A stretch of DNA of 59,787 bases, from the NCBI RefSeq assembly GCF_013839515.1, contig NZ_JACDNQ010000002.1, forward strand, positions 184,292 to 244,078, in the 5' to 3' direction. Both the position numbers and the translations under genes were made by a program. A model generated the notes under the pieces. That model was not told the DNA's origin, made no database searches, and saw only the letters and a program-made list of their open reading frames with translations. Shown piece after piece: positions 6,947 through 59,560 of the stretch. Positions within the stretch are counted from its first letter, which is position 1; each line of letters starts with the position of its first letter. This DNA is from Natronomonas salinimetallica. Its GTDB lineage: Archaea > Halobacteriota > Halobacteria > Halobacteriales > Haloarculaceae.

Positions 6947-6969
6947 CGAATATGTTCGTTATAAATAAA
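6947..6969 (+). promoter_or_regulatory. NarO-like box plus TATA element upstream of hemerythrin
   Basis: CGAA-TATG-TTCG at 6947-6958 exactly matches the CGAA-N4-TTCG palindrome reported for the haloarchaeal regulator NarO, and is followed at once by TTATAAATAAA (6959-6969), a TATA-like element. The hemerythrin ATG at 7070 lies about 100 nt downstream, implying a 5' leader. The rest of the 6711-7069 intergenic stretch shows nothing else I can support. Confidence 0.6.
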
Positions 6970-7069: not shown

Positions 7070-7579
7070 ATGAGCGATGCCAGAGAACACGTCATCGAGA
7101 CGTTCCAGGAGGAGCACCGTCAGACCAGAGACAAATGCCTCGAACTCTCGGACGCGATCGAGGCGGGCGACCTAGACCGCGCCGAGGAGCTGGTCCATGA
7201 AATCGATGTCGCGGCGGGGCCGCATTTCCAGTACGAGGAGGACGCGCTGTATCCGGCGTTAATCACGTTCTTCGGCGAGCAGAAAGTAAAGGAGCTGGTC
7301 GCCGAACACGACGAAGCGATCGAGGCCGCCGAGACGCTCGCCGACCTCACGAGTCAAGACGTCCTCTCCAAGGCCGAAACACAGGAGGCACTTCGGGCGC
7401 TGCCGAACATCATGGTCCACGTCAGCGACTGCGACGGGCTGACGGTCTACCTCGAAAAGGCCGACGACGAGGTTTTCGAAGACATCAAACGGAGCATGGA
7501 GGCGGCGAACGAACAGGGGCTGACGCTCACCGAGTACGACGAGACCGTCCGACCGAGTCCCGAGGAGATCGTCGCCTGA
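7070..7579 (+). CDS. Hemerythrin HHE domain protein
   Basis: A 169-residue helical-bundle protein with di-iron ligand motifs of the hemerythrin family: EEHRQTRDKC (about residues 15-24), HFQYEEDALYP (about 54-64), EHDEAIEAAE (about 83-92) and HVSDCDG (about 118-124). Such proteins bind oxygen, NO or iron and often act in nitrosative or oxidative stress. It lies downstream of a NarO-like box and beside rhodanese and DUF2249 genes, which supports a stress or low-oxygen role by context. Confidence 0.88.
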   Translation: MSDAREHVIETFQEEHRQTRDKCLELSDAIEAGDLDRAEELVHEIDVAAGPHFQYEEDALYPALITFFGEQKVKELVAEHDEAIEAAETLADLTSQDVLSKAETQEALRALPNIMVHVSDCDGLTVYLEKADDEVFEDIKRSMEAANEQGLTLTEYDETVRPSPEEIVA

Positions 7580-9601: not shown

Positions 9602-9841
9602 ATGCAAATGGCTGAACAGCAACTCGATCTCCGGGAGATCCCGCCGCCACAACGGCACCCGAAGATCTTCGACGCGTTCGAGGAACTGAAAAGCGGTGAG
9701 GCTTTGACACTGGTCAACGATCACGAACCGACGCCGCTGTACCACCAGATGGCCGCCGAAATCGAGTCGTTCGACGCCGATGGCTACGCCGTCGATCGTG
9801 TCGGCCCGAACGAGTTCATCGCGACGCTTCCGAAAAAATAA
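9602..9841 (+). CDS. DUF2249 domain protein (single domain)
   Basis: A 79-residue protein, MQMAEQQLDLREIPPPQRHP onward, spanning one DUF2249 domain. Its signature VNDHEPTPLYHQM recurs in the four-domain protein at 13331. DUF2249 (SirA/TusA-like fold) occurs near nitrogen-oxide reduction and hemerythrin genes in many prokaryotes; the biochemical role is unknown. An alternative start Met lies two codons downstream (9608). It lies close behind the small membrane gene and may share its NarO-boxed promoter. Confidence 0.8.
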   Translation: MQMAEQQLDLREIPPPQRHPKIFDAFEELKSGEALTLVNDHEPTPLYHQMAAEIESFDADGYAVDRVGPNEFIATLPKK

Positions 9842-10236: not shown

Positions 10237-12021
10237 TTATCGGTATACATAGTACTCATCGTCGGCTTTCTGTTCACGATCGAGTCGACTCCCCGGTTTG
10301 TTTACGCGGGGGCGACCGGTTCGCACATCGCGGCGGAAGGTGATTCCGAGCGAGGAGAGGAACGCGTTCATCCCCTCCCGCATCGGCCGTGGCGAGTGGG
10401 CACGCCCACGTTCGCCCGAGGTTCCCTCGAACACGATCACTCGATCGGCAACCCGATCGATCACGAAGAGGTCGTGGTCGACGACGAGAACGGGGCAGTC
10501 CGTTCGGTCGCTGAAGCGCCGGAGCCGATCGGCGAGCGACACGCGACGCTCGACGTCCAAAAAGGCAGACGGTTCGTCGAGGAGATACGCGTCCGCGTCG
10601 CGGGCGAGACACAGCGCAACGCCGACACGCTGTAGTTCCCCGCCGGACAGCGAGTCGAGCGATCTGTCGTACAGCGCTTCGACGTCGAAGGGATCCCGGA
10701 TCCTCGTCTTGAAGCGCTCCGAGTAGACGTCGGTGACGCTGGCAAATCGCTCTCGGACCGTTCCCCGACCGTCCGGCGTGATGTACTGTGGCTTGTACGA
10801 GACGGTCAGATCGTCGGGACCGTCGCCGTCGTCGGCCTCGATGCTCCCCGCGAGCATCTTCACAAACGTCGTCTTGCCGAGCGCGTTCTCCCCGACGATG
10901 CCGACGGACTCGCCGGCGGAGATCCCTCCCGGGTGGGCCGAAACCCCGAATCCGTCGAACTCCTTTTGAAGTGTCGGATATTCGAAAAGCGGGGGTCCGT
11001 CGGCGAACGCGCGGTCGGCCGCCGTGGCGAACTCGATCGAGTTGCGTCGGATCCGGACGTTGTCCCCTGTTAAATATCCGTCCAGAAACTGGTTGATGCC
11101 TTCGCGGGTCGATAGCTGCTGGGAGACGACGCCGAAGCTGCCGGGGTCGCCGTACAGGACGTGGACGTTGTCCGAAAGGAGGTCCAGCATCATCAGGTCG
11201 TGTTCGACGACCAGTGCCGACGCGTCGGCCTCCCTGATACGGTCGCGAATGATCCGCGCGACGGCGGTACGCTGTCCGACGTCGAGAAACGAGGAGGGCT
11301 CGTCGAACAGATAGAGGTCCGCATCGGCCATCAGCGCTGCCGCGATGGCGACGCGCTGTCGTTCCCCGCCCGAGAGGTCGTCCAACGAGCGGTCACGGAC
11401 GGACCGCAACCCGAGTTCGTCGAGAAGCCCGGGGGCTTCCGGTCGGCCGGCCAGCAGCTGTCGTACCGTCTCGGCGTCGCCGTCCGGCATCGAGTCGACC
11501 CGCTGGTCTTTGTGAACGGTCGTGACGGTCCCGTCTCCGAGCCGCTCGAGGTGTGTCTGGATGGTCGTTCCACGGAATGACTCGATCGCCCGTCCCCAGC
11601 CGCCTTGGCCGTCGCTTCCGAAATTCGGGACCAGATCTCCCGCCAGAATCCGGAGTGCGGTGCTTTTGCCGATCCCGTTGCGGCCGAGCAACCCGACGAC
11701 GGTACCGTCACTCGGCGCGGGGAGGTCGTACAGCCGGAACCCGTTCTCGCCGTACTGGTGGACGAGCTGGCCGGTCTCGGTGGGAAGCGGGACGATGCGG
11801 ACCGCGTCGTTGGGGATCTTCTTTTCGACGAGTTTGTGCTCGCGCATCACCTTCGCGTCGTCGATGCGGAGTTCGCCGTCGTCAGTGACGTGGAATCCCT
11901 CGTGGCCGGACCGGTTCAGTGGGTCGTAGTTGACCGCGATATCACGCACCTCGTCCGTCACCGCCTCTTGATCGATGACCGCGATGTATTCTTGTTTCGT
12001 TGAGTCAGTTGGGGTGGACAT
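10237..12021 (-). CDS. ABCE1/RLI-like ATPase lacking all Fe-S cysteines
   Basis: A 594-residue twin-ABC protein homologous to RLI/ABCE1, the ribosome-recycling ATPase. Both ATPase cassettes look intact: Walker A GLLGRNGIGKST and GIVGENALGKTT, signatures LSGGERQRVA and LSGGELQRVG, Walker B YLFDEPSSFLDV and YLLDEPSAFLDV. The N-terminal ferredoxin-like domain is still recognisable (YIAVIDQEAV..., YDPLNRSG, PNDAVRIVPLP), but the eight cysteines that ligate two 4Fe-4S clusters in canonical ABCE1 are all replaced. It is presumably a second RLI paralogue. The start at 12021 (MSTPTDSTKQEY) is preferred over one seven codons upstream. A degenerate CGAA-N4-TTC-like motif lies near 12109. Confidence 0.9.
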   Translation of the reverse strand: MSTPTDSTKQEYIAVIDQEAVTDEVRDIAVNYDPLNRSGHEGFHVTDDGELRIDDAKVMREHKLVEKKIPNDAVRIVPLPTETGQLVHQYGENGFRLYDLPAPSDGTVVGLLGRNGIGKSTALRILAGDLVPNFGSDGQGGWGRAIESFRGTTIQTHLERLGDGTVTTVHKDQRVDSMPDGDAETVRQLLAGRPEAPGLLDELGLRSVRDRSLDDLSGGERQRVAIAAALMADADLYLFDEPSSFLDVGQRTAVARIIRDRIREADASALVVEHDLMMLDLLSDNVHVLYGDPGSFGVVSQQLSTREGINQFLDGYLTGDNVRIRRNSIEFATAADRAFADGPPLFEYPTLQKEFDGFGVSAHPGGISAGESVGIVGENALGKTTFVKMLAGSIEADDGDGPDDLTVSYKPQYITPDGRGTVRERFASVTDVYSERFKTRIRDPFDVEALYDRSLDSLSGGELQRVGVALCLARDADAYLLDEPSAFLDVERRVSLADRLRRFSDRTDCPVLVVDHDLFVIDRVADRVIVFEGTSGERGRAHSPRPMREGMNAFLSSLGITFRRDVRTGRPRVNKPGSRLDREQKADDEYYVYR

Positions 12022-12172
12022 GTGTTGTACTCCGTTCCGCATCGCGGACCGTGGGACGTCTTACGGGTGGATTTCGGTGTCCGGACGAATGAAGACTCCG
12101 GCGAAAGTATTCTCGATGAGAGACATCCGCGGGTCGTCTCCGGAGTCCATAGGATCGGCCTCGGCGGTCCGG

Positions 12173-13060
12173 CTACGATCGGCCTCGGCGTGTGGATGCC
12201 GCTTGCACGAGATTGGCGAGAACCAGCCCGGTCAAGACGAGCAAGACGAGCAGCTTCACCCCGATCAGCCGCCCGACTGCCGACCCGAGAAACGCGGCAA
12301 GCGATAGGTCGATGACACCCATCGTCTGATAGGTCCCCGTCACGAAGAACAGAAGGATGACGGCCGGGAGGTGTCTACGAAAGCGGTCTGCCTGCTGTTT
12401 CAGCGCGTCCGCGGCGACGGAGGATCGGAGCACCGGGATAATGAGGGAGTTGTGCCAGAGAGCACCCCCGATCCAGAGCGCGAACGAGCCGACGTGACCG
12501 AACCGAACCGCCCAGTCGACGATGCTGGTCCCCGTTTCCAGCCACGCGAACCCCCCGAGTGCCACCAGCGTCGAGGTGAGGAGGGCGGCCCGCACGTACG
12601 CCGTCCGCCGGGCCGAGCCGGCCCCGTCGACGCCGCCCCGACGGATCCCGACCCAGAGTACGGGGGAGACGACGGCTCCCGCGCCGAGCGCGGCCGTCCC
12701 GATCCCGGATGGGGCGAGGCTCAGGCCGGCTGCCGCACAGAGCGCGAACGACCAGACGGAGACGGTTTCGAGCCGCCGCCACCGATTCTGGACCCACCGG
12801 GCGGTGTTCGTGTCGTCGAAACGCGAGGCGTCGAAGAGCACCACTCGCCAGTAGAGCCCGCCGACGAGCGTCCCGTTGGCGATGACGACGGCCCACCAAA
12901 GCACCCGACTCAGCGGTGGGCTCCCCCAGTGGGCGAGCCAGACGCCGGCGAACGAACCGCCGAGCAACAGTCCCAGCACGATCCGCGATTGTATTCGGTC
13001 CAGGGAGAGCACGTCCCCGAGCGCAGCCGTCTCCCCGAGCTGGATCCCTCGATCGGCCAT
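12173..13060 (-). CDS. CopD-like multispanning membrane protein
   Basis: A 295-residue protein with about eight hydrophobic segments (such as IVLGLLLGGSFAGVWLAHWG, VSVWSFALCAAAGLSL, GVKLLVLLVLTGLVLANLV). The segment RFGHVGSFALWIGGALWHN resembles the CopD copper-resistance/transport family, whose members move copper or haem-related cargo; assignment is tentative. The ATG at 13060 lies 7 nt from an 18-bp DtxR-like palindrome, implying metal-dependent control. AATATATTT near 13102 could be its TATA box. It lies just upstream of the ABCE1-like gene on the same strand (151-nt gap). Confidence 0.7.
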   Translation of the reverse strand: MADRGIQLGETAALGDVLSLDRIQSRIVLGLLLGGSFAGVWLAHWGSPPLSRVLWWAVVIANGTLVGGLYWRVVLFDASRFDDTNTARWVQNRWRRLETVSVWSFALCAAAGLSLAPSGIGTAALGAGAVVSPVLWVGIRRGGVDGAGSARRTAYVRAALLTSTLVALGGFAWLETGTSIVDWAVRFGHVGSFALWIGGALWHNSLIIPVLRSSVAADALKQQADRFRRHLPAVILLFFVTGTYQTMGVIDLSLAAFLGSAVGRLIGVKLLVLLVLTGLVLANLVQAASTRRGRS

Positions 13061-13084: not shown

Positions 13085-13278
13085 CAAAAGGGTGCGTGCA
13101 AATATATTCGGCACTCGGCCGACGTGGTACGGAACGGTCCCCCGTGAGTGGCGACGGGCCCACCGGCCGTCCTGTCCGGCGACGTGGCGTGTCGGTCATC
13201 TCTCGGCGGCCGGATATCGGATATCGGATGGACGGAGGACGAATCGCGTGACGGACGTATCACGGACGGACAGCGGCC

Positions 13279-55478: not shown

Positions 55479-55557
55479 TCATACATCGAGGACTGAGGCG
55501 AGGCGTTTGAAAAAGGTTGCGTCGAATATATTTGTCGCGTCCGGATGGCGGCCCGAG

Positions 55558-59219: not shown

Positions 59220-59560
59220 TTCACCGCACCGGCGGTTCGGATACTGTCTCATTGGTGGCGGGCAGGCCGTGGTTCGAAAATCGAATATTTTCGCCATTAT
59301 GAGAGAGCTCTGCCCTCTCGAACGACCTCCGAAGGTCGTTCGGTCTCGCTCCGTTCCGACCTAACCTTACATCGTATCATGCGGTGTCAATACTTGAAGC
59401 TACGGATTGGAAGCTCAGAGAATGGCATCCAACGGTGGTTTGTGTAGCGTATCGTCGGATTCATCTGGTGGCTCGGTCTCCCGTCATCACGAAATGGCTC
59501 CGCCGTCTCGGACGACCCCACGAAGGAATCATCGCGCTTCAGCACGGGGAGGATGTCAAC
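59220..59560. other. Decayed sequence between the inverted repeats, possible IS200/IS605 right-end remnant
   Basis: No intact gene. The stretch has hairpins (GAGAGAGCTCTGCCCTCTC at 59299-59317; GAACGACC...GGTCGTTC at 59320-59342) and a fragment in the plus frame ending LQHGEDVNRVASRNL. GGGGAGGATGTCAA (about 59547-59560) resembles the sequence at the right end of haloarchaeal IS200/IS605 elements, from memory. The rest of 59043-59787 outside the named elements is also non-coding. Confidence 0.3.

Follow-up and report, generated by a model that had tools for sequence, protein, structure and literature searches.

A cysteine-free ABCE1/RLI paralogue of Halobacteria, a candidate iron-independent ribosome factor

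Background

Few proteins of archaea and eukaryotes are as conserved as ABCE1/RLI (archaeal ABCE1 and yeast Rli1; PDB 3bk7, 6tmf and 3j15). It carries two [4Fe-4S] clusters, which perform no redox chemistry but are deemed essential. The protein described here, which we term RLI-B, shares with it the head-to-tail NBDs, the HLH, hinges 1 and 2, the fold, and the ATPase and 30S-anchor residues, but differs in lacking the eight Fe-S cysteines, in its changed h44 contacts and in being a second, accessory copy. A second ABCE gene alongside the first is also found in plants and some animals (ABCE1/ABCE2; PMC6088178). Those paralogues are reported to be close duplicates (81% in Arabidopsis, PMC7839781) and are not known to have lost Fe-S clusters. 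The ABC-F proteins (EttA and the ARE proteins) are, like RLI-B, soluble twin-ATPase ribosome factors, but they have neither an equivalent of the FeS domain nor the ABCE hinge 2, and identity in structural matches is 17-23%. No prior description of an Fe-S-free or one-cluster ABCE1 was found in the literature searched, which lay chiefly outside subscription journals.

Results

Identity and anatomy of RLI-B

The window analyzed is the whole stretch of 59,787 nucleotides from Natronomonas salinimetallica. The original prediction, made from the letters alone, was that positions 10237-12021 encode an ABCE1 paralogue without cluster cysteines. An ORF is indeed present there, and it has none of the eight ligand cysteines. 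The gene and the parts of its product are:

10237..12021, minus strand: RLI-B, cysteine-free ABCE1/RLI paralogue, 594 amino acids; NCBIfam NF009945, 668 bits
11782..11988, minus strand: remodelled equivalent of the FeS domain, residues 12-80
Ligand sites of RLI-B in the 39-row RLI alignment: V21, V25, A29, D33, V58, H62, V65, I69
11122..11760, minus strand: NBD1 including the HLH (R150, G151), with Q173, S217, E241 and H274
10387..10989, minus strand: NBD2 with Walker A, signature S459 and E483
10246..10389, minus strand: hinge 2, the 30S h8-h14 anchor, with R563, R564, R570, R572, K575, S578, R582, Y590 and Y591

We take the ATG at 12021 as the start, since the starts of orthologues favor it over another in-frame ATG at 12042. 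Membership of the RLI family by descent is clear. The score to the NCBIfam RLI equivalog NF009945 is well above its cut-off of 469 bits, the tree described below places the protein inside the family, and ABC-F profiles remain below their cut-offs (the best, ribo_prot_ABC_F, at 159 against 380 bits). What is missing is the textbook hallmark of ABCE1, its cofactor: RLI-B does not have the eight-Cys N-terminal domain for two [4Fe-4S] clusters, and Fer4_RLI was not matched in a Pfam search of the protein. Nor is it the single essential gene expected of ABCE1/RLI, as a canonical copy is always present with it and three copies of RLI-B are broken.

The alignment comprises 39 RLIs, with 17 canonical rows (6 haloarchaeal, 11 from other archaea). 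All 17 have Cys in each of the eight ligand columns, where RLI-B reads V/V/A/D/V/H/V/I. No shifted set of cysteines was found that might form clusters elsewhere; the first 100 residues of RLI-B contain no Cys at all, which rules out this possibility. The genome (2.78 Mb, 99.96% complete) was searched for a cysteine-containing copy, as the original prediction had proposed, and one RLI besides RLI-B was identified, at C1:203480-205084. It is canonical and 49% identical to RLI-B, and its eight-Cys pattern is complete (CQPDRCNYECANFC...CLGETCGICVEKC). RLI-B is thus not a sole, altered RLI of this genome.

In the AlphaFold2 model of RLI-B (mean pLDDT 89; about 91 for residues 11-80), a predicted helix at 60-68 replaces the canonical Cys5-Cys8 loop, and the small N-terminal domain is predicted to fold without metal. 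Foldseek aligned the complete ABCE1 structure 3bk7 with RLI-B over its full length (TM 0.91). The N-terminal domain is remodelled, and more than merely stripped of its cysteines.

Distribution and constraint of the cysteine-free family

Of 391 Halobacteria genomes scanned, 17, belonging to several families, carry cysteine-free RLIs, which we designate group B, and a canonical copy is found alongside in every one. Those that are annotated are labelled simply RLI in RefSeq. A scan with Fer4_RLI was positive in 388/391 genomes, which may hint at universality, though a second, shorter protein, presumably Tsr3-like, matches it too. All 18 aligned group B orthologues share the cysteine-free pattern, while the full eight-Cys motif is kept in 60/60 other RLIs fetched, so that the pattern in RLI-B is far from chance. 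The residues that occupy the ligand sites across the group (V,V,A,D,V,H,I,I) are nearly invariant.

Group B genes are plasmid-borne in Haloferacaceae XH8, Haloprofundus MHR1, Natrinema DC36 and zhouii, Haladaptatus salinisoli and Natronococcus AD-5, and Haloarcula sinaiiensis carries copies on two plasmids; the remaining copies are on chromosomes or unassigned contigs. A search of phage records and viral contigs returned no match to RLI-B, giving no support to spread by viruses or phages. The RLI copies on two other plasmids, NZ_CP031308.1 (Natronorubrum bangense) and NZ_CP054710.1 (Halarchaeum sp. CBA1220), are only 46% identical to RLI-B, a value similar to that of canonical copies. The archaeal-type RLI encoded on a contig labelled Candidatus Aminicenantes, a bacterium, falls among those of Woesearchaeota, and the contig is probably mis-binned.

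Within group B, mean identity is 77% for the FeS-domain equivalent and 61% for the rest of the protein. For close pairs, dN/dS values of 0.05-0.15 were obtained for the FeS-domain equivalent, against 0.10-0.18 for the remainder. The cysteine-free domain is thus the most constrained part of RLI-B, which speaks for a function of its own. Three genes appear to have been broken recently: Natrinema DC36 copy 1 (stop in hinge 2), the copy in genome G290 (stop at codon 216) and that of Haloplanus ruber (frameshift), which is consistent with RLI-B being an accessory gene. The frameshift in Haloplanus ruber lies near the second signature motif. These broken copies and the patchy distribution are what one might expect of a non-functional relic or decaying duplicate, but we consider this highly improbable and have rejected it on the strength of the dN/dS values, lowest in the very domain that was altered, the intact motifs and the fixation of the replacement residues.

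A one-cluster relative and the phylogeny of RLI

The closest relatives of group B are the RLIs of group C, found in genomes of Halorutilales type: Halorutilus salinus, the MAG Ods02 and two others, coded f11 and f5, with one RLI found per genome; a fifth genome of this type, 64% complete, has an RLI fragment. Like RLI-B, the group C proteins have D, V and H at sites 4, 5 and 6 and a shortened second Cys loop. They differ in keeping Cys1, 2, 3 and 8 (4/4; sites 4-7 read D, V, H, S/C) and in being the only RLI found in their genomes. In two-cluster ferredoxins, Cys1, 2, 3 and 8 hold one cluster and Cys4, 5, 6 and 7 hold the other. The two clusters of yeast Rli1 are likewise divided between sites 3 and 7, Cys25 being a ligand of one and Cys61 of the other (PMC4523923). 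By this pattern, the ligands of exactly one cluster survive in group C. An AlphaFold2 model of the one-cluster protein was poor in the FeS domain (pLDDT about 50) and was left out of structural claims. The ABCE1 of group C, as a presumably essential one-cluster enzyme, is of interest in itself.

All 18 group B and all 4 group C proteins have D and H at sites 4 and 6 (D33 and H62 of RLI-B), and a salt bridge or a metal site are candidate roles for the pair. If another metal or non-Cys ligands such as these took the place of the clusters, RLI-B would still be metal dependent. We regard this as quite improbable, since no four ligands are conserved together, aliphatic residues took over most of the sites, and the domain is predicted to fold metal-free.

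The full-length tree supports group B (100/100), group C (100/100) and their union (100/99), as well as the canonical haloarchaeal group A (100/100) and all Halobacteria jointly (100/98). Groups B and C remain together when the FeS domain is removed (SH-aLRT 97), so their grouping is independent of the missing cysteines. Monophyly of group B without the FeS domain was not rejected (AU p 0.37), and the second cluster may have been lost once or twice. A series of two, one and zero clusters fits this tree. The simplest history would be that one cluster disappeared from a vertically inherited ABCE1 in a Halorutilales-like lineage, and that a descendant or relative of it lost the second and spread via plasmids to other haloarchaea; alternatively, there may have been an early duplication followed by differential loss.

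ATPase, anchor and h44-contact residues

Residues of group B were checked in Sulfolobus numbering against the contacts listed in PMC7196836. The original prediction held that both ABC cassettes keep Walker A, signature and Walker B motifs, and the check agrees: both NBDs of RLI-B are complete, Q- and H-loops included. The hinge 1 and hinge 2 anchors to 30S h8-h14 (N305, N316, R565, R572, R574, S580) are present, and in the HLH insertion of NBD1 R144 and G145 are kept and E147 is substituted. Throughout the family (18/18), the catalytic glutamates E238 and E485, signature serines S214 and S461, Q167, H269, hinge-1 N305 and N316, and hinge-2 R565, R572, R574, S580 and Y593 are retained. On the uS12 side, R28 is found in 15/18 and K60 in 17/18. 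Altered in all 18 are the eight cysteines, P13 (deleted), two h44-contacting residues (K15, now E; N17, now R or K), and the cantilever residue N70 (now P, R or Q).

Kept anchor and ATPase residues together with a lever arm remodelled at its h44 contacts and N70 in all orthologues might indicate a ribosome-bound modulator rather than a splitter. Such a protein would bind free 30S or idle 70S via hinge 2, the HLH and ATP occlusion, and would act in anti-association, in hibernation or as a dominant negative, adjusting translation when cells are stressed or grow slowly in anoxia. Dominant-negative effects are seen with ABCE1 mutants that remain bound to the small subunit (PMC6124641), and denitrifying Haloferax mediterranei translates less (PMC11218638). 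We give this reading a real chance, but a lower one than splitting: with both catalytic glutamates kept, RLI-B should not be locked as E-to-Q mutants are, and group C, its closest relative, has to carry out ribosome recycling as the only ABCE1 in the cell.

Gene neighborhood

The genes around RLI-B in the window encode hemerythrin, rhodanese, a single DUF2249 domain, a zinc ribbon, RLI-B itself, the CopD-like protein, tetra-DUF2249 and aconitase. The features that bear on the setting of RLI-B are:

7070..7579, plus strand: hemerythrin HHE protein, with a perfect NarO-type motif ahead of the gene at 6947-6958
9608..9841, plus strand: single-domain DUF2249 protein, adjoining RLI-B
12173..13060, minus strand: CopD-like membrane protein, on the same strand as and immediately upstream of RLI-B; weak homologues near other RLI-B genes
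13099..13110, no strand assigned: NarO/denitrification-type motif CGAATATATTTG, between the CopD-like and tetra-DUF2249 genes; motif from PMC11218638
13148..14341, plus strand: four-domain DUF2249 protein, true start probably 13331; its orthologue recurs near RLI-B

NarO-type motifs near RLI-B, which had been anticipated from the letters, are present at 6947 and 13099. The denitrification motif CGAAYATDKTYG at 6947-6958 is a perfect palindrome, with its second occurrence at 13099-13110; the latter could act on RLI-B solely through co-transcription of the gene over a 151-nt gap. Perfect matches to the motif are also located far from RLI-B, at 55523-55534 and 59282-59293. A scan of 250 nt upstream of RLI-B orthologues revealed no NarO box, ruling out a family-wide box in that position.

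Of 18 RLI-B copies, 8 have a DUF2249 gene no more than 8 kb away, where 0.27 would be expected. Orthologues of the tetra-DUF2249 protein, present in 53/391 Halobacteria and often adjoining a cysteine-free RLI, were identified in 10/17 genomes with RLI-B and 43/374 others (p = 9e-6, uncorrected for kinship). In Haloferax mediterranei, all four DUF2249 genes are induced in denitrification (PMC11218638). This induction, and the recurrence of DUF2249 and CopD-like genes nearby, point to anaerobic, NO and copper stress as candidate conditions for RLI-B. Such conditions harm exposed Fe-S clusters.

Several RLI-B plasmids share a cluster of genes encoding a CGCGG RiPP (rSAM-modified), CopD-like, TusA/DsrE, cupins, a multicopper oxidase and KorAB, together with a ferredoxin, a universal stress protein, a redoxin, a second TrpRS, an SdhB-like protein and a metal P-type ATPase. 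The neighborhood varies, and the plasmids of Haloarcula sinaiiensis differ. The cluster is not an Fe-S-free spare set of proteins, as the KorB and SdhB-like neighbors keep their Cys ligands. Frequent carriage on plasmids, in several cases with the second TrpRS, copper-handling genes and the CGCGG RiPP, would suit a stress-island or target-protection factor that resembled ABC-F resistance proteins or guarded against a toxin or antibiotic, the cluster with TrpRS being a translation-protection set. This is improbable, given that RLI-B does not have ABC-F architecture, its ABC-F scores are far under the cut-offs, its best full-length structural match is ABCE1, and in most RLI-B loci, that of the window included, TrpRS is unlinked.

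A dedicated aRF1 or Pelota partner can be ruled out, as the genome has one copy of each; RLI-B would thus share these partners with canonical ABCE1.

Discussion

The explanation that we favor, with a probability of roughly 0.5, is that RLI-B is an accessory, iron-independent ribosome factor of the ABCE1 type, serving in recycling or in binding of the 30S subunit. By its sequence, it descends from an ABCE1 lineage in which one [4Fe-4S] cluster went first, a condition still seen in the sole ABCE1 of Halorutilales-type genomes, and the other later. RLI-B would bind 70S and 30S at the ABCE1 site via hinge 2 and the HLH and would close on ATP, whereupon its metal-free lever arm would swing and split, or else guard, post-termination or stalled ribosomes, splitting them with aRF1 or aPelota. 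Recycling could in this way be sustained when the supply or stability of clusters fails, as in anoxia or denitrification, under NO or copper, or in iron shortage; the stress setting is probably anaerobic, NO or copper. The gene would be gained and lost with plasmids and dispensable under ordinary conditions. Its ligand sites are now fixed as mostly hydrophobic residues plus D and H.

A stronger form of this explanation is possible, though we hold it more tentatively: that RLI-B is a fully working iron-independent ABCE1. The redesigned core of the lever would then allow splitting without Fe-S, the clusters having gone from two to one to zero, with the one-cluster form serving as the sole, essential enzyme of Halorutilales and the plasmid-borne RLI-B recycling ribosomes when clusters are destroyed. 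As a counterpoint to both forms, loss of both clusters from yeast Rli1 is lethal, even in anoxia (PMC4523923). The altered h44 face and N70 also mean that the domain may dock differently or may not split.

Nothing in the retained ATPase and 30S-anchor residues, the strong purifying selection, the accessory distribution or the DUF2249, CopD-like and NarO-motif surroundings conflicts with the roles first proposed for the gene, recycling upon cluster damage or modulation; splitting and stress induction are parts that we infer. Three points go beyond the original prediction: the family is widespread and associated with plasmids, the first four ligands that it lost are also missing from the one-cluster ABCE1, and its domain was remodelled.

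A 2021 review lists means of replacing ABCE1/Rli1 upon cofactor or iron failure as an open question (PMC8153317). The RLI-B family is a direct candidate for such a replacement, and it is present in culturable Haloarcula sinaiiensis, Natrialba and Halosimplex. With a constrained paralogue that has no cysteines and a sole copy with one cluster, nature has set up experiments in which the mechanics of the domain are uncoupled from its cofactor, and groups B and C allow testing of why the ABCE1 machine normally needs iron.
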